Source of the DNA: a virus
Length of the DNA stretch: 56,294 bases
Strand: one strand, 5' to 3'
IMG/VR virus record: IMGVR_UViG_3300014903_000004
Coordinates: 1 to 56,294 of that record
Shown: positions 3,107 through 50,903 of the stretch, piece after piece
How positions within the stretch are numbered: position 1 is the first letter of the stretch
Layout: every line of letters starts with the position of its first letter
Position numbers and translations under genes: made by a program
Notes under the pieces: generated by a model
Databases searched by the model: none
What the model saw: only the letters and a program-made list of their open reading frames with translations
What the model was told of the DNA's origin: nothing

Positions 3107-3272
3107 GCCGGAGTTCAGAGCCGAGATTGTGGAGACTAAAGGGATTGAATATTTTAAGGCGTATCATAACGCTGAGTCTGATCAAGCCCAGGTGATGACG
3201 ATTAACCCTGTGAAGGCTGAAATCATGATTAATACCTTACAAAACTATATAAATAACAAAAAGGAGGCTTGA
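3093..3272 (+). CDS. small hypothetical protein
   Basis: 59 aa from GTG 3093, overlapping the previous gene by 14 bases, with GGCGAGG upstream. It is mixed alpha/beta (RAEIVETKGIEYFKAYHN, AEIMINTLQNYI). Its end abuts the promoter at 3269. No family recognised; placement in a tightly packed operon supports it being real. Confidence 0.55.
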   Translation: MKRNKPEFRAEIVETKGIEYFKAYHNAESDQAQVMTINPVKAEIMINTLQNYINNKKEA

Positions 3273-3297
3273 TAAAAACATAGAATTGATATAAAAT
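3269..3297 (+). promoter_or_regulatory. promoter for the 3.3 kb structured RNA
   Basis: TTGATA (3269-3274), a 17-base spacer and TAAAAT (3292-3297) give a near-consensus sigma70 promoter. The start site would be about 3304, only 15 bases before the first arm of the RNA structure. Confidence 0.65.
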
Positions 3298-3303
3298 AAA
3301 CTC

Positions 3304-3396
3304 AGACAATAAAAGCGAGTACGAGCCGCTAAGAATAGATTTTTAAAGCCCCAAGGCGCTCACTGCTCGTACCAGTGAATTGCTAAGGGGTTTTTT
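3304..3396 (+). ncRNA. candidate pseudoknot small RNA / leader, copy 1
   Basis: A predicted transcript of about 92 bases. S1 GTACGAGC (3319-3326) pairs with GCTCGTAC (3365-3372). S2 AAAGCCCC (3345-3352) pairs with GGGGTTTT (3387-3394). The order S1-S2-S1'-S2' is an H-type pseudoknot. An alternative fold is a terminator: CCCC/GGGG plus an inner CACTG/CAGTG hairpin, ending in T6. The end GGGGTTTTTTATTGGA is identical to the locus at 36024. It could act as an autonomous sRNA or an attenuator for the gene at 3462. Pairings are seen directly; function is inferred. Confidence 0.6.
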
Positions 3397-3410
3397 ATTG
3401 GATAAATTTT

Positions 3411-3428
3411 AACCGTCCGTTAAATGGA
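3411..3428 (+). repeat. GTCC...GGA intergenic element 1
   Basis: AACCGTCC, seven bases, then GGA. It is the first of four related elements in front of or between genes at 3.4-5.5 kb. Flanking sequence is also shared with element 2 (AAATTTTAAcCGTCCG before, ACAAAATAAGGAA or similar after). Confidence 0.55.
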
Positions 3429-3461
3429 GAGGATAAAAACAACGCAAAATAAGGAAATGAG

Positions 3462-4088
3462 ATGAAAATATTAGTAGCTTGTGAAGAATCACAGACCATA
3501 ACAAAAGAATTACGCAAGTTAGGCCACGAGGCGTATTCAAACGATGTTGATGAGTGCAGCGGTGGGTTGCACTCAATACATTTGCAAATGGATTGCTTTG
3601 ATGCAATAAAGTTTTTTGATAAGTGGGATATGATTATAATGCATCCACCATGCACTGCGATGACTGTCTCAGGTAACAGCACTTATGGGTTAAATAAAGA
3701 TGGTACGCCAAAGCCAAAGCACAACGAGCGAGTAAAAGCTGTAAAATGGACTCAAGATTTATGGAACCTAGCAACTTCTGTTTGTGATAAAGTTGCAATG
3801 GAGAATCCTGTAGGAGTTCTTAACACCATGGGGGATTTTCCTAAAGCAAACTATATACAGCCTTACCAGTTCGGACACATGGAGCAAAAGAAAACAGGAT
3901 TATGGCTTCACGGATTGGAGCCACTGAAAGCAACTAATGACGTATATGAAGATATGATGAAGTTGCCTAAAAAAGAGAGAGAGCGACTTCACTATATGTC
4001 ACCTGGTCCAGAACGTACAAGAATGCGAAGTAAGACTTTCGCTGGAATTGCCGAGGCTATAGCGTGGCAGTGGGCTGGTCAAATTTAA
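3462..4088 (+). CDS. cytosine-C5 methyltransferase-like protein lacking a target-recognition domain
   Basis: 208 aa. ILVACEESQTITKELRKLGH plus the acidic SNDVDEC resembles the SAM-binding start of C5 methyltransferases. HPPCTAMTVSGN matches the catalytic PC motif region and MENPVGVL the ENV region. The target-recognition domain and the final QR...GN motifs are missing, so it is shorter than a standard enzyme (over 300 aa). This truncated type is common in phages. It may modify DNA, or a related substrate, alone or with the full-length enzyme directly downstream. Good ribosome site (AAGGAAATGAG). Confidence 0.75.
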   Translation: MKILVACEESQTITKELRKLGHEAYSNDVDECSGGLHSIHLQMDCFDAIKFFDKWDMIIMHPPCTAMTVSGNSTYGLNKDGTPKPKHNERVKAVKWTQDLWNLATSVCDKVAMENPVGVLNTMGDFPKANYIQPYQFGHMEQKKTGLWLHGLEPLKATNDVYEDMMKLPKKERERLHYMSPGPERTRMRSKTFAGIAEAIAWQWAGQI

Positions 4089-4106
4089 ACCGTCCGTATA
4101 ATGGAC
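4088..4106 (+). repeat. GTCC...GGAC intergenic element 2
   Basis: AACCGTCC GTATAAT GGAC: a 4-bp inverted repeat with a 7-base loop, beginning at the stop codon of the upstream gene. The surrounding leader resembles that of element 1 base for base over about 40 positions. Confidence 0.55.
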
Positions 4107-4137
4107 ACAATAAAAACTAAACAAAATAAGGAATGTT

Positions 4138-5061
4138 ATGAATGTACTTTCATTATTTGATGGCATGAGTTGCGGGCGCATAGCCTTAGAGCGTGCCGGT
4201 ATAAAAGTAAATAATTACTTTGCAGCTGAAATAGATAAATATGCTATCAAGGTATCAAAGGCAAACTGGCCGGACATCGAGCATCTTGGAGACGTTACAA
4301 ATAATTGTTTTTGGGACTTACCAAAAATTGATTTGCTGATTGGTGGTAGCCCTTGTCAAGGATTTAGTTTTTCAGGCAAGCAACTGAACTTTGATGATCC
4401 TCGTAGCAAGTTGTTTTTCTCTTTTATAGACTGCTTAAATGCGTTTAAACCAAAATATTTCTTTCTTGAAAATGTGAGAATGAAAAAAGAATCCGAAAGG
4501 GTCATAACAAAGCTGCTTGGTGTTGATCCAATTAAAATAAATTCAGCGCTGGTATCTGCTCAGAATAGAAAGCGGCTATATTGGACTAACATACCAGGTA
4601 TATGTCAGCCAAATGATAAAGGAATTATCCTTAGAGATATTTTAGAGAATGGAGAAAACTTTGTATATCAGAGAGCGAGAGGCAATAATCCTGGTGGTCT
4701 AAGATCTGATAAATCCCCGTGTATGGGTGCTAGTTCTTGGCAGCACAATGTTAAAGTACTATCCAAGGCAGCTCTTGTAAGAATTGAAAGAAAAAACTAT
4801 TCTAAACCTAAAATCATGCCGGAAAAAACAGGCACACTAAATACTGTGAATAATGCGCCAAAACTTTGTTTTGACTCAGGAAGTACTCTTATACCGGTAG
4901 GGGGTGGTGATTACAGAATGCTAGTTCCAGTTGAGTGTGAACGGCTTCAAACAGTTCCCGATAACTACACAAACCACGTGTCAAAAACACAGCGTTATAA
5001 GATGCTAGGTAACTGTTGGACTATCGATGTTATTGTTCACATATTCAAAGGGTTAAAATAA
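4138..5061 (+). CDS. dcm: DNA (cytosine-5-)-methyltransferase
   Basis: 307 aa with a full motif set: motif I LSLFDGMSCGRIALE, motif IV GGSPCQGFSFSG near residue 71 with the catalytic Cys, motif VI FLENV near 108, motif VIII QNRKRLYW near 142 and motif X LGNCWTIDVI near 290. The stretch between VIII and IX is the target-recognition domain. The look is closest to the DNMT3-like phage branch. It probably protects phage DNA from host restriction. AAGGAATGTT lies before the ATG. Confidence 0.92.
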   Translation: MNVLSLFDGMSCGRIALERAGIKVNNYFAAEIDKYAIKVSKANWPDIEHLGDVTNNCFWDLPKIDLLIGGSPCQGFSFSGKQLNFDDPRSKLFFSFIDCLNAFKPKYFFLENVRMKKESERVITKLLGVDPIKINSALVSAQNRKRLYWTNIPGICQPNDKGIILRDILENGENFVYQRARGNNPGGLRSDKSPCMGASSWQHNVKVLSKAALVRIERKNYSKPKIMPEKTGTLNTVNNAPKLCFDSGSTLIPVGGGDYRMLVPVECERLQTVPDNYTNHVSKTQRYKMLGNCWTIDVIVHIFKGLK

Positions 5062-7124: not shown

Positions 7125-7322
7125 ATGAAATGTCCACACAAAGATTTTTTAGGATCAGAAATAAAGGAGGGTGATACTTTAATTCACCCAAGTGGCGAGA
7201 AATTTAAAGTAGAATACGTTGAAGGGTTTGGCCCGTGGCGAGCTGCCTATGAAGATGGTGATAGTTTGTGGCTTGCCAATCAAGTAAATGATAAAGGTCA
7301 AGCGGTATTATATTCCAACTAA
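7125..7322 (+). CDS. small beta-rich hypothetical protein
   Basis: 65 aa. The ATG at 7125 is favoured over GTG 7119 because ACGGGGT lies at proper spacing. GDTLIHPSGEKFKVEYVEGF reads like a KOW/SH3-like barrel of the kind in many phage small proteins. Function unknown. Confidence 0.55.
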   Translation: MKCPHKDFLGSEIKEGDTLIHPSGEKFKVEYVEGFGPWRAAYEDGDSLWLANQVNDKGQAVLYSN

Positions 7323-7339
7323 CCAACGGTAGGTGAGAT

Positions 7340-7876
7340 ATGAGAGAGTCAATAGAAGTTATTAAGTGTGATAAAATGAGAAAGACTAGAATAATAAGCG
7401 CATTTCCAGCATGTGGTAAAACATACTTATTTAATAACCCACAAAACTATTCGGTATTGGATAGTGATAGTAGCGAATACAGTTGGGTGAAAGATGATGA
7501 CGGAAACAACACGAAAGTTAGAAATCCAGAGTTTCCACAAAATTACATTGATCATATCAAAACTAATATTGGAGAGGTAGACTTTATCCTTGTAAGCAGT
7601 CACAGCGATGTAAGACAAGCTCTTGATAACAATGAGTTAAATTGGTGTGCAGTTACACCTGATGCAAATTTATTGAATGAGTGGATTGGAAGGTGTTATG
7701 TTCGTGGCAGTAGTGAAGGGTTTCTTAAAATGCTAATTAAAAACTGGAAAGAATGGACGAATTGGCAAGCGATAAATATGGACTTTGATAATTGCGGTCA
7801 TGCTATTTTGTCAACTGGTGAATATCTAACAGATAAATTATACTGGCTTGAAACTCTGCAATACAACGAATCTTAA
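7340..7876 (+). CDS. P-loop NTPase / kinase-like protein
   Basis: 178 aa. A Walker A motif SAFPACGKTYL lies near residues 20-30. LDSDSSEYSW follows, then an aspartate-containing strand VDFILVSSHSDVRQAL acting like Walker B. This matches a P-loop protein seen in many phages (ISAFPGxGKS...DSDSSxFSW), distantly like nucleotide kinases. The substrate is unknown. It could phosphorylate a nucleotide or another small molecule. Leader CCAACGGTAGGTGAGAT. Confidence 0.75.
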   Translation: MRESIEVIKCDKMRKTRIISAFPACGKTYLFNNPQNYSVLDSDSSEYSWVKDDDGNNTKVRNPEFPQNYIDHIKTNIGEVDFILVSSHSDVRQALDNNELNWCAVTPDANLLNEWIGRCYVRGSSEGFLKMLIKNWKEWTNWQAINMDFDNCGHAILSTGEYLTDKLYWLETLQYNES

Positions 7877-8635: not shown

Positions 8636-8661
8636 CCCAACAACCCAACGGTAGGTTAGAT

Positions 8662-8853
8662 ATGGCATACTGTGAAATCTGCAATGAAGGTATATGTGAG
8701 TGCGACAAGGTAATTATTGATTGTGTCGGTGTTGATGATAGACGGCATAGATGTGAACCGCACAAAGACACCGCAAAATGTGGAATGAAGGTGAAGAGAA
8801 AAAAGAATATAGATAAGATAAATTTGGCTGGGTGCTGGGAATGCACTTATTAA
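8662..8853 (+). CDS. Cys-rich small protein
   Basis: 63 aa, leader CCCAACGGTAGGTTAGAT. CEICNEGICEC at the N-terminus, CEPH in the middle and CWECTY at the end suggest a treble-clef or similar zinc site. It is the last plus-strand gene, converging with the late operon only 16 bases away, with no visible terminator between. Confidence 0.6.
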   Translation: MAYCEICNEGICECDKVIIDCVGVDDRRHRCEPHKDTAKCGMKVKRKKNIDKINLAGCWECTY

Positions 8854-33816: not shown

Positions 33817-34056
33817 ATGATTGTATGCAATTCGATTAAAGAGGTAATGACAAAGCACAAAATGAGGCCAAAGGAGTTTTCTGAGGCCACAGGAATGAAG
33901 TATGGAACCTGTCAACAAATCCACAAAGGGCAGAAATCACCACAGTTTGACGTGTTTTCAGTCTGGCTTGACCTTGGGTTGTCGCACGGCAAGACTATTG
34001 ATGAGTTGAAGAAAGAGCTTAAGGAGGTGAAGAGTGAAAGAAACAAATCTTTTTGA
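33817..34056 (+). CDS. HTH regulator of the accessory island
   Basis: 79 aa, ribosome site GAGGATATT. MRPKEFSEATGMKYGTCQQI looks like an HTH (helix-turn-helix with recognition helix KYGTCQQIHKG), then a coiled-coil end (IDELKKELKEVKSE) suited to dimerisation. It is the first gene after the operator promoter, so autorepression is likely. Confidence 0.65.
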   Translation: MIVCNSIKEVMTKHKMRPKEFSEATGMKYGTCQQIHKGQKSPQFDVFSVWLDLGLSHGKTIDELKKELKEVKSERNKSF

Positions 34057-34141
34057 TAGCGTTAATGTATTCATAGTGGCTCTTGCTTGCGTTGGAATTG
34101 TGAAAACAGTTACGAACCTAGTCATGGAGATAGCCAAATGA
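34034..34141 (+). CDS. 35-residue single-span membrane protein
   Basis: GTG start with perfect AAGGAGG six bases upstream, inside the end of the HTH gene. VNVFIVALACVGIVKTVTNL is a membrane span. Stop TGA overlaps the next ATG. Similar mini-membrane proteins occur at 51326 and 35323. Function unknown. Confidence 0.6.
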   Translation: MKETNLFDSVNVFIVALACVGIVKTVTNLVMEIAK

Positions 34142-34593
34142 ACAACATCCTAGAAAGAATGCTTGAAGAGCAAATGGAAGCGCATATGCACAAAGGCATT
34201 CAGGAAATGGACAGGGCACAAACTGAAGCGCGTAGGCCGACGAGTGAGCCACCGGAGCCACGAGATAGACCAACACCTAAATCACTTAAGCAAACACGAA
34301 AGGAATTAGAAGATAAATACGGACCCAAAAGTGCAGGGTACACACATCTCCCACAAATCAACGTCGACACGCCAATGCCGGAGTGTAAGGAGCCGCTTAC
34401 TGATTACGAGAAGGCAAAACAAAAACGCCAAATCAAAATCGAGATATCAATTAAGTCAGGTATAATCAACCATGAAGTAAACTGGACTTTAGAAAAGAAC
34501 GAAAACATTGAATTGCTTAAGTCGATTTCTTCTGGTGAGGCTGAATTTTTCATAAATCAGTATAGAGCTTTGGGAGGGGATAATAATGAATGA
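34138..34593 (+). CDS. hypothetical protein, disordered N-terminus
   Basis: 151 aa from ATG 34138, coupled by ATGA to the membrane peptide. The first third is charged and helical (LERMLEEQMEAHMHKGIQEM), then a Pro/Arg-rich linker (SEPPEPRDRPTPKS), then a small folded end (EISIKSGIINHEVNWTLEK). No family recognised. Confidence 0.55.
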   Translation: MNNILERMLEEQMEAHMHKGIQEMDRAQTEARRPTSEPPEPRDRPTPKSLKQTRKELEDKYGPKSAGYTHLPQINVDTPMPECKEPLTDYEKAKQKRQIKIEISIKSGIINHEVNWTLEKNENIELLKSISSGEAEFFINQYRALGGDNNE

Positions 34594-34882
34594 AGTGGGC
34601 TATTGCGATGATTGTCATATGGAATATGACTTAGATGAATACAACGAATGCCCCGGTTGTGAAGATAGGGTTGTTGGTGATCTGGAACAAGAAAACGATT
34701 TTCTGTATCATATGGTTTTAGATATGTGGTCATTGATGTATCACACAAAGAGGCAAGGATTAGGAAAAGAATACAAAGAAAAGTGTATGGAATCAAGAAA
34801 TAAACATAACGAAAACTGGATTAAGTTTACAGAAATAAAGGTAAGAAGAGATAAGGAGGCAAACGATAATGACAACACGTAA
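34586..34882 (+). CDS. zinc-ribbon-like small protein
   Basis: 98 aa, GGGAGGGGA upstream. CDDCHMEYDLDEYNECPGCE is a CxxC-x12-CxxC knuckle. The rest is helical and charged. Overlaps both neighbours by about ten bases. Function unknown. Confidence 0.6.
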   Translation: MNEVGYCDDCHMEYDLDEYNECPGCEDRVVGDLEQENDFLYHMVLDMWSLMYHTKRQGLGKEYKEKCMESRNKHNENWIKFTEIKVRRDKEANDNDNT

Positions 34883-35336
34883 AGATAAATGCAGATGCTG
34901 CGGGCATGTGAGAGAAATAGAGGTTATCAACGCGCACCTTGAGCCTAGAGGTGTTCTTGTTTATGTTGATGAAGATAACATACAAATAAGTGGCAATTCT
35001 ACACCTGACAACTTGGAGATAAAAGTCCAAGCAGTAAGCGAGCTAACAGAAGAGGAAAAGGCAGCTCGGGTTGCGCCGACGATAACTGTATGTGATGCAT
35101 TTCTCGAAGAAGGTGAGGTGATTGGCAAGACATTACATGAGTATGTGAATGAAGGTGCAAGCAGCGCCCTCGAAAAGCTCTATAGGCCGGACTGGCTCAC
35201 ACCAAACTTCATGGGGTTAAAGCTCGACGAACAACTCAGCTCACGCGCTTTGATGGCCGTGATTCAGCAGTTGTCAATGATGGCGGAGTATGAAAAGATG
35301 TTTCAAACATGTGGTGGTGATAATGAAAATGCATAA
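34869..35336 (+). CDS. zinc-knuckle hypothetical protein
   Basis: 155 aa, AAGGAGG upstream. It opens with CRCCGHVREIEV, then strands and helices (NSTPDNLEIKVQAVSELTEE; LDEQLSSRALMAVIQQLSMM). It follows another zinc-ribbon gene and may act with it. No family recognised. Confidence 0.55.
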   Translation: MTTRKDKCRCCGHVREIEVINAHLEPRGVLVYVDEDNIQISGNSTPDNLEIKVQAVSELTEEEKAARVAPTITVCDAFLEEGEVIGKTLHEYVNEGASSALEKLYRPDWLTPNFMGLKLDEQLSSRALMAVIQQLSMMAEYEKMFQTCGGDNENA

Positions 35337-35577
35337 ACAATTATTTTACTTCAGCCTGATAGCGCTAGTAGCATCAGTTATCACCGGTATAACCGACTTA
35401 AATATCATGTCTGTCATTCTTGTAACCGGATCAATGGTCATCAAGGGGGTTAGGGAAGAGTTGAAAAATCAAAACAACCCCGATAAAAGAGATAGTAGTT
35501 TGAACTGCGAATTTGTGATTAAAGAGAAACCACATACTGGTGGAATAACGAGTGACAAAACAGGAGCACCGAAATGA
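35323..35577 (+). CDS. small two-span membrane protein
   Basis: 84 aa from ATG 35323. Two hydrophobic segments (FYFSLIALVASVITGI and IMSVILVTGSMVIKGV) are followed by a polar tail. It overlaps the upstream gene by 14 bases and the next by 4. Could be a superinfection-exclusion or holin-like protein, but nothing specific shows this. Confidence 0.55.
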   Translation: MKMHKQLFYFSLIALVASVITGITDLNIMSVILVTGSMVIKGVREELKNQNNPDKRDSSLNCEFVIKEKPHTGGITSDKTGAPK

Positions 35578-35939
35578 GTCTAACACCACCACTCCCGAGA
35601 CTTGTAGAAAGAGGCCATGTACATTGTAACCAATACGACGGATGTCTTATAGTCGGAGCTAAAAAATGTATCTATGATCGTCACCCAGTGCCGCCGCCGA
35701 TAAAAACTATTAACGAGGATAAAAACATAAGCCGTAAATTTCAATCAGAACATCACCGTAAGAGGTGGGAGAAGGAACTCGGAATTGAAAGCAAGACATA
35801 CCACAGCGCAAATACTATAAGCGACTATCAATTGCAGTTTGAGAGACGATTGACATGGGGAGAGTTTTTATTTAAGTGGCTATTCTTGGCTGCAATAATT
35901 CTCTTTGCTATTTACGCTGTTGAATGGCTAGGGATTTAG
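35574..35939 (+). CDS. C-terminally anchored membrane protein
   Basis: 121 aa, ATGA overlap with the previous gene, AGGAG upstream. A soluble, basic N-terminal part with three Cys is followed by one membrane span at the C-terminus (FLFKWLFLAAIILFAIYAV). Its end overlaps the -35 region of the promoter for the RNA at 35954. Function unknown. Confidence 0.55.
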   Translation: MSLTPPLPRLVERGHVHCNQYDGCLIVGAKKCIYDRHPVPPPIKTINEDKNISRKFQSEHHRKRWEKELGIESKTYHSANTISDYQLQFERRLTWGEFLFKWLFLAAIILFAIYAVEWLGI

Positions 35940-35947
35940 TATATATT
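35920..35947 (+). promoter_or_regulatory. promoter for the 35.95 kb structured RNA
   Basis: TTGAAT (35920-35925), 16-base spacer, TATATT (35942-35947). Start site expected near 35954, right before the first stem arm. Confidence 0.6.
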
Positions 35948-35953
35948 AAACAA

Positions 35954-36033
35954 GTCGCCACTACCGACAAATATAAAAAACTATTTTGAAAACCCCTTAT
36001 CGGATGCGTAGTGGCTCTGGTTTGGGGTTTTTT
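35954..36033 (+). ncRNA. candidate pseudoknot small RNA / leader, copy 2
   Basis: About 80 bases. S1 GCCACTAC (35957-35964) pairs with GTAGTGGC (36008-36015), extended by CGA/TCG. S2 AAAACCCC (35989-35996) pairs with GGGGTTTT (36024-36031). The order S1-S2-S1'-S2' and the end GGGGTTTTTTATTGGA equal those at 3304-3402, while the S1 sequence is entirely different. The antirepressor ATG lies 16 bases after the T run, so it may attenuate that gene or act in trans like the C4 RNA of P1-type phages. Pairing is visible; function is inferred. Confidence 0.6.
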
Positions 36034-36048
36034 ATTGGAGAAGAAAGT

Positions 36049-36663
36049 ATGCAAGAGTTATCAACAATCAATTTTCACGGTGACGAGATCCAGGCAGTAC
36101 AAAAAGATGGTCAACTATTTATTGCGATGAAGGAACTTTGTGAGTCAATAGGTGTTAATTGGAAAGGACAATTAAAAAGAATAAAACGCGATGAAGTGCT
36201 TAATTCAGTTGGTGCCATTATGACGGCAACTGGTTCCGATGGCAAAAACTATGAAATGATGTTTTTACCACATGATATGATAAGTGGCTGGCTTTTTGGT
36301 TTATCTTTAAATTCATATACTGGAGAGAAACGCGATAAGATAAAGAAATACAAACTGGAATGTTACCAAGTCTTAAACGATTACTTCAATAAAGGTGGTG
36401 CAATCAACCCAAATGCAAACGACGAACAGCTTGCAGAACTAAAAGGAATGGTAAACAATCTCGAAACAGCCTGCATCCAGCGAGACGGCGTTATTGCATT
36501 CATGTCGAACACAATGGCCCCTGTTGCGCCAAAAGGTACAGTCTCGGAAGTCAACGGCAAAGAGCGCGAGTATTTAGTGCACTCGTATTTCAGGAGCGAC
36601 AAAGGCCACCTTGTTGACGATAGGCAGATTGATATGTTTTCTAAAACAGGAGCGCCGGAATAA
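36049..36663 (+). CDS. phage antirepressor, P22_AR_N domain
   Basis: 204 aa from ATG 36049 (TTGGAGAAG upstream). The N-terminal NFHGDEIQAVQKDGQLFIAM, LCESIGVNWKGQLKRI and DMISGWLFGL fit the P22 antirepressor N-terminal domain. The C-terminal half is a short coiled coil and a variable end. Antirepressors bind and disable repressors; the target here could be the HTH proteins of this phage or of co-resident prophages. It sits directly behind the structured RNA. Confidence 0.85.
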   Translation: MQELSTINFHGDEIQAVQKDGQLFIAMKELCESIGVNWKGQLKRIKRDEVLNSVGAIMTATGSDGKNYEMMFLPHDMISGWLFGLSLNSYTGEKRDKIKKYKLECYQVLNDYFNKGGAINPNANDEQLAELKGMVNNLETACIQRDGVIAFMSNTMAPVAPKGTVSEVNGKEREYLVHSYFRSDKGHLVDDRQIDMFSKTGAPE

Positions 36664-37091
36664 TGCCACACAACAAACTAGTCCAGACCGCGGCGAAGTG
36701 GCTCAGGAAACACTCACAAAACGCTGTGATACCGAATTGCAACATTATATCCGATGATATCAAATCAGCAACGAAGACCGGGGAAATCCCGGATGTTATC
36801 GGTTGGTGTAGCTGGTGCTCGATCCTCATTGAGGTAAAGGTAAGCCGGGCCGATTACTTCGCTGATCGCAAAAAAGAGTTCCGCACCGTCGTAGAAAAAG
36901 GCATGGGTGAGTTCAGATATTATATCTGCCCTAAAGGAATGATTGAAGAGACTGAAGTTCCGGTGCAGTGGGGATTGCTCTACTGTAACGATGACGGGAA
37001 TATTGAGATTGTTCGTGAGGCCATTAAACAGGAATCAAACTTAGATGCAGAGAGAACGTTGTTGTTGTCGCTTATGAGGAGGGGTAAATAA
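36663..37091 (+). CDS. PD-(D/E)XK-like nuclease domain protein
   Basis: 142 aa, TAATG coupled to the antirepressor. GEIPDVIGWCSWCSILIEVK and SRADYFADRKKEFR give the E-PD...EVK...D..K pattern of PD-(D/E)XK nucleases of the VRR/MmcB-like kind. Catalytic residues would be Asp in PDV, then Glu and Lys in IEVK. Role may be in phage DNA processing or attack on foreign DNA. Confidence 0.7.
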   Translation: MPHNKLVQTAAKWLRKHSQNAVIPNCNIISDDIKSATKTGEIPDVIGWCSWCSILIEVKVSRADYFADRKKEFRTVVEKGMGEFRYYICPKGMIEETEVPVQWGLLYCNDDGNIEIVREAIKQESNLDAERTLLLSLMRRGK

Positions 37092-37408
37092 TGCCAGATA
37101 AACCAAGCGATAAATTCATAAGGCACCTATTAAGTGAGTTCTGCAACTTCTTACCAGAGCTAATGAAAGAGGTGAGAGAAGCAAAATGCAAGACTAAGTA
37201 TTATTCAACGCAACTTGATATGGGTGATTACATAGTAGAAATTGTTTATAATGTTAAAAAAATACAATGCGAATGCATAAAGTTTTCTATTTCAGACGGA
37301 GATAATATTGATTACTGGTTGATAAATCCATATACAAAAGAATTGAGATTATTGAATAGACAAGAAACACCGACACCCTGCCACATTCGCCGCAGTAGCC
37401 CCGAGTGA
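37091..37408 (+). CDS. hypothetical protein converging on the MuF-like gene
   Basis: 105 aa, TAATG coupled to the nuclease gene. Helical start (FIRHLLSEFCNFLPELMKEV) then strands (GDYIVEIVYNVKKIQC). Its last 60 bases overlap the end of the minus-strand head gene, so the two genes are antisense there. No family recognised. Confidence 0.55.
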   Translation: MPDKPSDKFIRHLLSEFCNFLPELMKEVREAKCKTKYYSTQLDMGDYIVEIVYNVKKIQCECIKFSISDGDNIDYWLINPYTKELRLLNRQETPTPCHIRRSSPE

Positions 37409-39951: not shown

Positions 39952-40025
39952 TGGAAGAGCGATCTGGAATCGAACCAGAGGCTTCAGAGTCAAAGTCTGA
40001 GGTGTTGCCATTACACCACCGCTCT
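39952..40025 (-). tRNA. tRNA-Gln (anticodon TTG), CCA encoded
   Basis: Complete cloverleaf of 74 bases. Acceptor AGAGCGG pairs with TCGCTCT; anticodon loop CTTTGAC within TCAGA/TCTGA; TTCGATT T loop; CCA present. Reads CAA. Confidence 0.92.
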
Positions 40026-40028
40026 ATA

Positions 40029-40104
40029 TGGTGGATCCTCGGAGAATCGAACTCCGTGCCAAGCAATTATGAGTTGCCTGCTCTGACCGATGAGCTAAGG
40101 ATCC
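40029..40104 (-). tRNA. tRNA-Met or Ile2 (anticodon CAT), CCA encoded
   Basis: 76 bases; acceptor GGATCCT/AGGATCC; anticodon arm GGCAA-CTCATAA-TTGCT. CAT anticodon may be elongator Met or, if lysidine-modified by the host, Ile for ATA codons. The first acceptor pair is normal, so it is not an initiator. Confidence 0.9.
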
Positions 40105-40108
40105 AAAA

Positions 40109-40184
40109 TGGTGGCGCTATGTGGATTTGAACCACAGCCTTCCGGGCTTCAACCGGACGCTCTACCAAGCTGAGCTATAACGCC
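40109..40184 (-). tRNA. tRNA-Phe (anticodon GAA), CCA encoded
   Basis: 76 bases; acceptor GGCGTTA/TAGCGCC with one T-G pair; anticodon arm TCCGG-TTGAAGC-CCGGA; CCA present. Confidence 0.92.
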
Positions 40185-40190
40185 TAATGT

Positions 40191-40264
40191 TGGCATACCG
40201 GCAAGGATTTGAACCTCAATGACCTGTTTTGGAGACAAGCATCTTACCATTAGATGACCGATAT
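40191..40264 (-). tRNA. tRNA-Trp (anticodon CCA), CCA encoded
   Basis: 74 bases; acceptor ATATCGG/CCGGTAT; anticodon loop CTCCAAA in CTTGT/ACAGG with one wobble pair; discriminator G as in bacterial tRNA-Trp. Confidence 0.9.
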
Positions 40265-40274
40265 ACATAAAACT

Positions 40275-40350
40275 TGGCTTGCCTGGCATGACTCGAACAT
40301 GCGACATTCTGGTTAACAGCCAGATGTTCTACCAACTGAACTACAGACAA
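40275..40350 (-). tRNA. tRNA-Asn (anticodon GTT), CCA encoded
   Basis: 76 bases; acceptor TTGTCTG/CAGGCAA; anticodon arm TCTGG-CTGTTAA-CCAGA; discriminator G as usual for Asn. Confidence 0.92.
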
Positions 40351-40361
40351 ACACTTAAAAA

Positions 40362-40436
40362 TGGAGCCGGATATCCGATTCGAACGGATGACCTAATCCT
40401 TACAAGGGACTTGCTCTACCACTGAGCTAATCCGGC
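40362..40436 (-). tRNA. tRNA-Thr (anticodon TGT), CCA encoded
   Basis: 75 bases; acceptor GCCGGAT/ATCCGGC; anticodon arm AGTCC-CTTGTAA-GGATT; CCA present. Confidence 0.92.
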
Positions 40437-40439
40437 AAA

Positions 40440-40514
40440 TGGTAACCCGTAGGAGATTCGAACTCCTGTTAACCGAGGGAAAGTCGGCTGTCTTAACCAC
40501 TAGACTAACGGGCC
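40440..40514 (-). tRNA. tRNA-Glu (anticodon TTC), CCA encoded
   Basis: 75 bases; acceptor GGCCCGT/ACGGGTT with two G-T pairs; anticodon arm GCCGA-CTTTCCC-TCGGT. It is the first tRNA after the internal terminator and gap. Confidence 0.9.
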
Positions 40515-40699
40515 ACACAATAAAAAAGGGCCGCATTTCAATTAAGAATGCGACCCTTGGAAAAACTGTTATGCTAAAATATCAAAACAGCAAGGATCGC
40601 GAATACATCTCAAACGTATTCGTAAAATTCTGCCATTGTATAAATATTTTCTTCATGATTTACTATTACCTCATAAAAATTATTTGTCAAATAAAAATG
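40515..40699 (-). other. 185-base gap in the tRNA array with possible small transcript
   Basis: Besides the terminator it has a leftward TTGACA (40692-40687) 18 bases from TAATAG (40668-40663), a 7-bp hairpin GAATACG/CGTATTC type (40600-40622), and a CTGTT/AACAG stem followed by TTTTT. A 24-codon frame at 40582-40656 (MKKIFIQWQNFTNTFEMYSR and four more) is possible but weak. A short RNA of about 130 bases could be made here. Confidence 0.4.
40522..40558 (-). terminator. Rho-independent terminator inside the tRNA array
   Basis: Leftward: a 12-bp stem AAGGGTCGCATT/AATGCGGCCCTT (one T-G pair), 9-base loop, then TTTTTT. It would end transcription coming from the first seven tRNAs. Confidence 0.8.
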
Positions 40700-40786
40700 G
40701 TGGGAGTTGATAGAATCGAACTATCTGGCACCACCGCACATAATAAGCCAAGTGATTTACAGTCACCCGTGCGGAACAACTCCCAT
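40700..40786 (-). tRNA. tRNA-Tyr (anticodon GTA) with atypical D and variable arms
   Basis: 87 bases; acceptor GGGAGTT/AACTCCC, T arm ATAG-TTCGATT-CTAT, CCA, and anticodon arm GGTGA-CTGTAAA-TCACT are all good. Only ten bases lie between acceptor and anticodon arm, so no normal D arm fits. The variable region is about 27 bases. CCGCAC in the D region is complementary to GTGCGG in the variable region. Could be functional with a new fold, or degenerate. Confidence 0.7.
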
Positions 40787-40787
40787 G

Positions 40788-40862
40788 GAGAACAGGGTGG
40801 GACTTGAACCCACTTATAAAAGATTTGCAATCAATTGCCTAACCTATCAGCCACCTGTTCAA
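40788..40862 (-). tRNA. tRNA-Cys (anticodon GCA), CCA encoded
   Basis: 75 bases; acceptor GAACAGG/CCTGTTC; T arm GTGGG/CCCAC; loop TTGCAAA. The anticodon stem ATTGA/TCTTT has two T-T mismatches, so it is weak. Identity rests on the anticodon and the discriminator T, which is U in tRNA-Cys. Confidence 0.78.
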
Positions 40863-40865
40863 ATG

Positions 40866-40950
40866 GCGGAAGATGCAGGAATCGAACCTGCGCGTCCTTT
40901 CGAACCCAGTTTAGCAAACTGGTGGAATACCATTCTCCATTCAATCTTCC
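40866..40950 (-). tRNA. tRNA-Ser (anticodon GCT), class II
   Basis: 85 bases; acceptor GGAAGAT/ATCTTCC; anticodon arm CCAGT-TTGCTAA-ACTGG; long variable arm; discriminator G; CCA present. Confidence 0.9.
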
Positions 40951-40959
40951 TAATAAAAA

Positions 40960-41046
40960 TGGCGGAGAGGGTGAGAGTCGAACTCACATGCCCTAAGACA
41001 ACGGTTTTCAAGACCGTGGCGTTACCAATTTCGCTGTAACCTCTCC
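40960..41046 (-). tRNA. tRNA-Ser (anticodon TGA), class II
   Basis: 87 bases; acceptor GGAGAGG/CCTCTCC; anticodon arm ACGGT-CTTGAAA-ACCGT; long variable arm; discriminator G; CCA present. Confidence 0.92.
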
Positions 41047-41056
41047 GCATAAAACT

Positions 41057-41133
41057 TGGTACTCCCAGAAGGACTCGAACCTTCAAACTCTCGGGTCTAA
41101 ACCGAGCGACTTTGCCAATTTGCCCATGGGAGC
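41057..41133 (-). tRNA. tRNA-Leu (anticodon TAG) with short class I variable loop
   Basis: 77 bases; acceptor GCTCCCA/TGGGAGT starting with a G-T pair; anticodon arm CTCGG-TTTAGAC-CCGAG; variable loop AGTTT only five bases; discriminator A; CCA. Bacterial tRNA-Leu normally has a long variable arm, so charging may be unusual. Decodes CTA. Confidence 0.82.
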
Positions 41134-41144
41134 ACATAAAACAC

Positions 41145-41220
41145 TGGTACTTCGAGCGGGATTCGAACCCGCAACTCACGGATTTTAAGTCCGTTGACTC
41201 TTCCGTTGGCCTATCGAAGC
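41145..41220 (-). tRNA. tRNA-Leu (anticodon TAA) with short class I variable loop
   Basis: 76 bases; acceptor GCTTCGA/TCGAAGT, again with a leading G-T pair; anticodon arm ACGGA-CTTAAAA-TCCGT; variable loop GAGTT; discriminator A; CCA. Shares the class I oddity with its neighbour. Decodes TTA. Confidence 0.82.
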
Positions 41221-41229
41221 ACATTAAAA

Positions 41230-41306
41230 TGGTCTGCGCGGTTGGATTTGAACCAACGGCTACCCGCGTCCAAGGCGGGGTGTCTACCAGACTGACTTAC
41301 ACGCAG
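41230..41306 (-). tRNA. tRNA-Pro (anticodon TGG), CCA encoded
   Basis: 77 bases; acceptor CTGCGTG/CGCGCAG; anticodon arm CCCGC-CTTGGAC-GCGGG; CCA. First tRNA of the array, directly after a terminator. Confidence 0.92.
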
Positions 41307-44556: not shown

Positions 44557-44629
44557 AAAAAAGCGCCAACAATCTCAGGGCAGCGAGATTGTTGACGCTC
44601 ATAATTTTATTAACTCTTGTCGCCTGCCC
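44557..44629 (-). ncRNA. terminator hairpin whose loop pairs upstream (third pseudoknot-like locus)
   Basis: Leftward: GGGCAG (44629-44624), then a 15-bp stem AGCGTCAACAATCTC/GAGATTGTTGGCGCT (44599-44585 with 44576-44562), whose 8-base loop contains CTGCCC (44583-44578) complementary to the upstream GGGCAG, then TTTTTT. Order S1-S2-S1'-S2' is as at 3.3 and 35.95 kb, but S2 is longer and sequences differ. It ends the MazG-like transcript or controls the next gene. Confidence 0.55.
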
Positions 44630-44648
44630 GCGATAAGACTAAGGTATA

Positions 44649-47014: not shown

Positions 47015-47632
<618 letters not shown>

Positions 47633-50243: not shown

Positions 50244-50903
50244 ATGGATGTTAAAACAGTAGACGGAGTGATTCTAAAAGAGGGAAAGTGGTATTATACA
50301 GATAATGGGCAAGCTGTTATTCTTGATAAAATACTTTGTGATACCGATTTGAATAACATGTTTTTAGTCACCCCTATATATGAAGGTGAAGCAATGGGTT
50401 GTTCTGGTGATGGTGGTTGTCATAGTGAATACACTGTTGATTATGAATGCGAGGGAATGCCTAGAATTGTTAACTGTCTGTTCAAAAAAGAGCCACTTGC
50501 AAAATTAGGCGAAGAGTTCAAAGCAAAGCAAAAAGAATTAACTGATATAGCCATTGCGATAGGGTCAATGAAAAGCGGTTTAAAAGACACAGAAAGAGCA
50601 AAAAAAGAAGTTCTAGACTCAATAGAGAAAGTGAAGAGAGATAATGCTCAGTTATTTAATCAAAATGAGATGCATAAAAGCACCCTCGAAATCACCATTA
50701 ATGAAACAAGAGATGCCCGTCAAAAACTCAGTGAACTTGAAGATGGTTGTGAGGTCTATGATCAAGCTAACGAATTAAAGGAAATTGCAAGACTCAGAAA
50801 GATCGAGTTTAAAATGCAATGTCTTGAAGCCTGTGGTGTTGATAACTGGAATTTTTACGATGTGTCTTTAAGTGAGTATAGTAAAAGATATCCAAACGGA
50901 TAA
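50244..50903 (+). CDS. hypothetical coiled-coil protein
   Basis: 219 aa, AGAGGGCAG upstream. The N-terminal 85 residues are beta-rich with Cys pairs (CSGDGGCHSEY). Residues 85-185 form a coiled coil (KQKELTDIAIAIGSMKSGLK). First gene of the early operon. No family recognised. Confidence 0.6.
   Translation: MDVKTVDGVILKEGKWYYTDNGQAVILDKILCDTDLNNMFLVTPIYEGEAMGCSGDGGCHSEYTVDYECEGMPRIVNCLFKKEPLAKLGEEFKAKQKELTDIAIAIGSMKSGLKDTERAKKEVLDSIEKVKRDNAQLFNQNEMHKSTLEITINETRDARQKLSELEDGCEVYDQANELKEIARLRKIEFKMQCLEACGVDNWNFYDVSLSEYSKRYPNG

Follow-up and report, generated by a model that had tools for sequence, protein, structure and literature searches.

The window, a 56,294-base IMG/VR record analysed over its whole length, carries tail-sheath, tape-measure, portal, major capsid and terminase genes, and was therefore assigned to a contractile-tailed phage. 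A plus-strand operon (33817-37408), which comprises a weak HTH_3-like protein (33817-34056), small genes, an antirepressor gene and a nuclease-like gene, sits within a minus-strand head-gene block. The same slot in a relative (L008, 1756-2556) contains no such genes and is tRNA-rich as judged by eye. The identification of the antirepressor gene in the initial annotation was borne out by matches of its product to Pfam P22_AR_N (E 8e-34) and to the PHROG anti-repressor (E 1e-40). The leader of this gene contains an RNA element, referred to here as copy 2, which is one of three such units in the window; these precede three genes and each has its own loop pair (Table 1).

Table 1 Positions of the kissing-loop units, their likely promoters and the genes that follow them in the window
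Feature	Position	Strand	Basis
Copy 2, likely sigma70 promoter TTGAAT-N16-TATATT (TATATT at 35942-35947)	35920..35947	+	consensus match only
Copy 2, hairpin H1: stem GTCG/CGAC (35954-35957 / 35965-35968), 7-nt loop CCACTAC (35958-35964)	35954..35968	+	MFE and centroid fold
Copy 2, hairpin H2 (intrinsic terminator): stem GAAAACCCC/GGGGTTTTT plus ATCGGA/TCTGGT, T6	35988..36033	+	MFE fold
Copy 2, putative kissing helix CCACTAC (35958-35964) / GTAGTGG (36008-36014), 7 bp	35958..36014	+	exact complements; covariation in relatives
Copy 2, whole unit, before the antirepressor gene	35954-36033	+	
Ribosome-binding GGAG (36037-36040) and antirepressor gene (36049-36663, 204 aa, P22_AR_N)	36037..36663	+	
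Copy 1, likely promoter TTGATA-N17-TAAAAT	3269..3297	+	
Copy 1, whole unit (H1 and terminator H2, T6)	3314..3396	+	descriptor scan and match to covariance model R1
Gene after copy 1, DNA methyltransferase-like	3462..4088	+	phrog_757, E 9e-53
Copy 3, whole unit, before a 274-aa gene	44557..44633	-	looser scan
Gene after copy 3, 274 aa	43717..44541	-	no Pfam or PHROG match

All parts that had been listed for the antirepressor leader, namely the promoter TTGAAT-N16-TATATT, the pairings S1 and S2, a T6 run and the antirepressor ATG, are present in the sequence at 35920-36049. The transcription start expected from the position of the promoter (~35954) coincides with the first base of hairpin H1, and the open reading frame (ORF) upstream of H1 stops 14 nt short of it. 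The MFE fold consists of a small 5' hairpin (35954-35968) and a terminator hairpin (35988-36032), with the T6 run at 36028-36033; GTAGTGG (36008-36014) lies within the apical loop of H2, and the ATG (36049) is located 15 nt past the T-run. In its 8-bp form S1 pairs GCCACTAC (35957-35964) with GTAGTGGC (36008-36015), and S2 pairs AAAACCCC (35989-35996) with GGGGTTTT (36024-36031). This interleaved design is real, as its strict form (8 + 8 bp interleaved, at least 4 GC in each, T5) has one occurrence in the window, and 200 trinucleotide-Markov shuffles contained none; a looser design that dispenses with the T-run has an expected frequency of 0.25 per window. The S1 and S2 pairings of the proposed pseudoknot RNA hold, but the GTCG/CGAC hairpin, which makes S1 a kissing interaction, had been missed. 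Because the H1 stem is present both in the window copies and in relatives, the H-type reading was dropped, and S1 is more aptly regarded as a kissing helix that joins the loops of two hairpins than as a classic H-type pseudoknot.

The antirepressor leader had been described as the second copy of its design, and the first copy is indeed found at 3319-3394. Its H1 has the form AGCG-AGTACGAGC-CGCT (3314-3330), and its terminator H2 has the form AAAGCCCC...TCACTG-(CTCGTAC)-CAGTGA...GGGGTTTT (3345-3394), followed by T6. A third copy, outside the initial annotation, is encoded on the minus strand (44633-44561; located at 44629-44563 by the looser scan), with H1 of the form TCGC-(GGGCAG)-GCGA (44633-44620), a terminator H2 (44600-44561) with the loop CTGCCC, and T6 at 44562-44557. 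In each of the three copies the 5' hairpin loop is exactly complementary to the terminator apical loop (over 7 nt in copies 1 and 2 and 6 nt in copy 3, where the loop pairing covers 6 bp) and a gene starts just after the T-run. The loop pairs themselves are wholly different; GGGGTTTTTTATTGGA is common to copies 1 and 2. A -10 hexamer lies just upstream of H1 in copies 1 and 2, and copy 3 has none by the same rule (given below). Since the 6-nt descriptor gives 0.35 matches per window in shuffled sequence, copy 3 by itself is not as secure as copies 1 and 2. A 58-nt direct repeat (3399-3456 and 4076-4133, 81% identical) occurs directly before each of two DNA methyltransferase genes, its first copy lying directly 3' of kissing-loop copy 1. 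The D3 repeats near copy 1 were rejected as lying outside the kissing-loop design.

Relatives of the element were sought in IMG/VR with the pattern CCCC-N20-50-GGGGTTTTTTATTGGA, which is blind to the S1 loop pairing. It returned 80 stretches, in about 24 of which a 5' hairpin has a loop exactly reverse-complementary to that of the terminator. The loops in this set include GTACGAG, GGACTAG, GGTCGAG, GTACCAG, GGACAAG, GTAGAAG, GTACAAG, CTGGTAG and others, and the H2 plan of copy 2 recurs in relatives. Twelve well-alignable members, 11 from the S1-blind search and MW202710.1 (found by sequence similarity), were combined in an alignment (A3) from which the window copies were excluded. Across these 12 members the 7-bp loop-loop helix is 100% paired, with two-sided changes at 4/7 positions. 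Their whole-structure covariation is 0.434, compared with 0.168 +/- 0.016 in shuffles (0/500), and is lost when the helix partners are slid against each other. The maintenance of the loop pairing by covariation in relatives marks the element as a genuine structured RNA whose family is missing from Rfam, and both structure and family are well supported. As no nucleotide match of the antirepressor leader was found in named phages, and a peptide-pattern search of IMG/VR found no close relatives of the antirepressor, the kissing helix of copy 2 is assigned by analogy with these relatives rather than from covariation of its own.

With a covariance model (R1) that was built from the relatives and ignores the loop pairing, a second copy was detected in record G003, and its loops are again complementary (GTACCAG/CTGGTAC). 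R1 matches copy 1 of the window at 32.8 bits (E 5.6e-4) and copy 2 at just 16.6 bits (E 1.3); copy 3 is not among its listed matches. Copies 1 and 2 have no counterpart of the long basal stem that H1 has in the best-covered relatives, and members with a short H1 align poorly. Later scans, in which three patterns demanded CTNNNNC in the terminator loop and a kissing descriptor (4 matches in 3.26 Mb of shuffled sequence) demanded complementarity, added the loops GGTCAAG, GTAGGAG, GGTTGAG, GGTCCAG, GTGAGAG, GTTACAG and GTGGAAG. Because these later members were selected for CTNNNNC and complementarity, they are not independent evidence for the pairing; those free of selection for complementarity are the aligned S1-blind set, the R1 matches and MW202710. 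Most loops fit G-K-N-N-N-A-G, from which the copy 2 loop CCACTAC departs. MW202710.1 is the only named record with a kissing element, and none was found at the named-phage homologues of the replication gene that follows the element in relatives. A scan of a genome collection with the strict pattern gave two matches, both non-members on inspection, and relatives identified by portal and capsid were set aside as too short or as having different slot content. In record L268, two kissing-loop units (4339-4419 and 4705-4806, with the loops GTAGGAG and TTGGAAC) lie ~370 nt apart.

Promoter-like sequences accompany the element across the family. A -10, taken as a TATAAT-like hexamer (at least 5 of 6 positions) or TAnnTTTG, was seen no further than 48 nt from the H1 loop in 26 of 35 members, whereas the twelve control offsets gave 1-7 of 35. 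Bacteroidota promoters are of the TAnnTTTG type, which suggests that phages from different phyla use the element, each with the promoter type to match. Nearly every member has a same-strand reading frame that begins no more than ~70 nt beyond its T-run. The genes found there include Rha regulators (L049 and L073), a gene with an AntA-like start (L093, judged by eye), primosomal or replication-initiation proteins of the MAGDWIK... type, whose homologues are annotated as such, other replication-type genes (MARIRT..., DUF1376-like and HTH_36-like, partly by eye), HNH genes and DNA methylases. As the gene downstream of most relatives is a replication, HNH, methyltransferase or other gene, the element is not antirepressor-specific and looks like a general early-gene leader RNA. 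L042 and L090 carry an identical RNA, followed in L042 by a replication-type gene and in L090 by an HNH gene, which indicates that the RNA travels apart from the gene. The same anatomy, with loops that covary among relatives, an adjacent promoter, a terminator and a gene directly downstream, recurs in many phages.

Comparison of ten close members revealed that the parts of the element diverge at different rates: the loops differ at 0.27 per site, the basal stem of H1 at 0.13, and the linker and the T-run/ribosome-binding region at ~0.04. The loops outpace the basal stem and linker although each loop change needs a change in the partner. The apical stems are at least as variable as the loops (0.45 and 0.27 in the same ten members), which may reflect exchange of the apical parts as whole blocks. 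Where the frames of two elements are at least 90% identical, their loops usually differ from one element to the other but remain complementary within each, and genomes with two or more copies (the window, L073, G003 and G009) carry different loops. Specificity types would look like this, and distinct loops are also likely by chance.

An Rfam scan of the window element gave no family at gathering score, C4 (RF01695) included, and at E up to 10 returned chance-level matches with no C4 among them. The relatives had no Rfam match either, and the isrK model gave no gathering-score match in the window or in the relatives. These results and the covarying loop pairing of the relatives agree with the earlier suggestion that the RNA is different from C4. 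Several known systems nevertheless share individual traits with the element. Kissing hairpins of the ColE1 RNAI/RNAII type have 7-nt fully complementary loops whose sequence sets specificity; there, two RNAs are made from opposite strands, whereas here both loops lie in one transcript and one of them belongs to a terminator. The IsrK locus of prophage Gifsy-1 consists of a promoter, a short RNA ending at an intrinsic terminator and partial read-through to the operon of the antirepressor gene anrP (PMC4825925). The order promoter-terminator-antirepressor is the same in the window, and part of the 5' end of IsrK RNA likewise pairs downstream. However, IsrK pairs over ~30 nt with orf45 beyond the terminator and acts on translation (PMC4825925), whereas here two 7-nt hairpin loops pair, one of which is the terminator loop. 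C4 of P1/P7 controls an antirepressor gene, and its complementary stretches are thought to lie in loops (PMC12197685). The present element is likewise upstream of an antirepressor gene, but its complementary pair includes the terminator loop and both partners belong to one short leader. P4 CI RNA with seqA and seqC, as summarised in PMC4825925, is a leader in which internal complementary stretches make transcription end early, ahead of the replication genes. CI arises by processing of the transcript and has two separate pairing sites, whereas the partner here is the terminator loop. The sar RNA of P22 exemplifies small-RNA control of ant (PMC12197685), a homologue of the antirepressor gene in the window. 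It is an antisense RNA on ant mRNA, in contrast to the pairing within one leader seen here.

A further RNA, sRNA-Xcc1 (RF02221), had no match in the window or in the searched kissing-loop loci, but precedes homologous ant genes of Mannheimia and Pasteurella phages (L322 845-931 and L323 873-956), which indicates that different RNAs occupy the same regulatory slot. These distant ant homologues were rejected as leader relatives on account of their different leader RNA. A full-text search of the open-access literature found no description of the present design, which is best called a new architecture of a phage leader attenuator or small RNA.

We favour, with a probability of roughly 0.6, a promoter-proximal attenuator, in which a short terminated RNA would be made, read-through would express the antirepressor, kissing would set termination and the loops would probably confer specific recognition in trans. 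The promoter would start the RNA at H1, giving a small self-contained transcription unit in the antirepressor leader. The intrinsic terminator H2, ~75-80 nt on, would end most transcripts to yield the short RNA, and the fraction reading through would carry the antirepressor, with its ribosome-binding site directly after H2. The loop of H1 and its exact complement in the apical loop of H2 are predicted to form a 7-bp kissing helix that would set the efficiency of termination at H2 (cis attenuation). We infer both the accumulation of the short RNA and the effect of kissing on termination, including its direction. The family anatomy would likewise be that of an attenuated leader, with a short RNA of ~75-110 nt plus a read-through mRNA. 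Judging from lengths, the ~17-22 nt linker of short-H1 members could span the kissing distance in cis, as could the 3-nt bulge, basal helix and 9-nt linker of long-H1 members. The terminated RNA would probably also recognise leaders with the same loop in trans, resulting in loop-specific feedback or immunity. Such recognition is considered probable because the loops change between near-identical elements and the copies in one genome differ, and loop identity probably sets specificity. The kinds of downstream genes, antirepressor/Rha and replication proteins, match those controlled by RNA elsewhere. No integrase was found in the window, which leaves lysogeny, and hence immunity, putative for this phage, and the immunity role is proposed by analogy. 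Only tentatively would we extend this to an undescribed, widespread class of phage RNAs in which a complementary hairpin loop would read the terminator loop of an early-gene leader and the 7-nt loop would be an exchangeable code defining many mutually orthogonal immunity or copy-control types across phyla, with antirepressor control included.

The main role might instead be that of a loop-specific, trans-acting immunity or copy-control RNA, where the terminated RNA of a resident phage genome would bind the same loops in the leader being transcribed from an incoming or additional copy and shut off the early gene. Its models would be C4 acting on ant in P1/P7 and CI RNA acting on replication in P4, and we regard it as possible, though rather unlikely. 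Near-identical frames with different yet complementary loops and the different loops among copies of one genome are in keeping with this role, and so are the kinds of target (early, antirepressor and replication genes); antirepressor and replication genes are known to be controlled by the C4, CI and sar RNAs (PMC12197685; PMC4825925). Yet the loop space is so large that distinct loops in one genome are expected by chance, the window has no detectable integrase, and H1 and H2, being parts of one RNA, could satisfy each other in cis. Kissing could also serve RNA stability, with a compact H1-H2 structure shielding either the read-through mRNA at its 5' end or the short RNA at its 3' end, and termination being unregulated. 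The location of H1 at the likely 5' end and of H2 directly before the ribosome-binding site would suit such a role, which is nevertheless improbable, as by itself it leaves the faster change of the loops than of the basal stem unexplained.

That the element is an ordinary terminator of the upstream operon, with S1 a coincidence, is very unlikely. Hairpins resembling terminators are common, and H1 lies close behind the upstream ORF, but the absence of the strict design from all 200 shuffles and the presence of three copies speak against a coincidence, and the covarying loop helix of the relatives contradicts it at the family level. It is scarcely credible that the element belongs to a known type (a C4-type antisense RNA, a type III toxin-antitoxin pseudoknot RNA or a known riboswitch). 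Its site before an antirepressor gene recalls C4, and a pseudoknot-like RNA plus terminator before a gene recalls type III toxin-antitoxin loci; however, Rfam gave no match at gathering score, a ToxN/CptN/TenpN toxin was not found downstream of the element, where the gene encodes P22_AR_N, and the antirepressor leader holds a single unit with no tandem pseudoknot repeats.

RNA control of phage early genes is known from a handful of model phages. A family absent from Rfam, whose covarying loop-loop helix involves an intrinsic terminator and whose phages have promoters resembling those of different bacterial phyla, would bring a new mechanism for the timing of early genes, replication and antirepressors. 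The family is also a natural source of orthogonal loop pairs and makes two testable predictions, namely that loop swaps would change specificity and that compensatory double mutants would restore function.

Elsewhere in the window, a 28-nt direct repeat (7315-7342 and 8637-8664, 89% identical) has its first copy at the start of the ORF 7340-7876, and short-period (9-15 nt) repeats (47036-47365) are located inside an ORF beside the large terminase gene. An array of 13 tRNA genes (39955-41306, minus strand) lies between the portal gene and the terminase-side genes. The protein encoded at 50244-50903 has a C-terminal match to the T7 gp5.9 RecBCD inhibitor.
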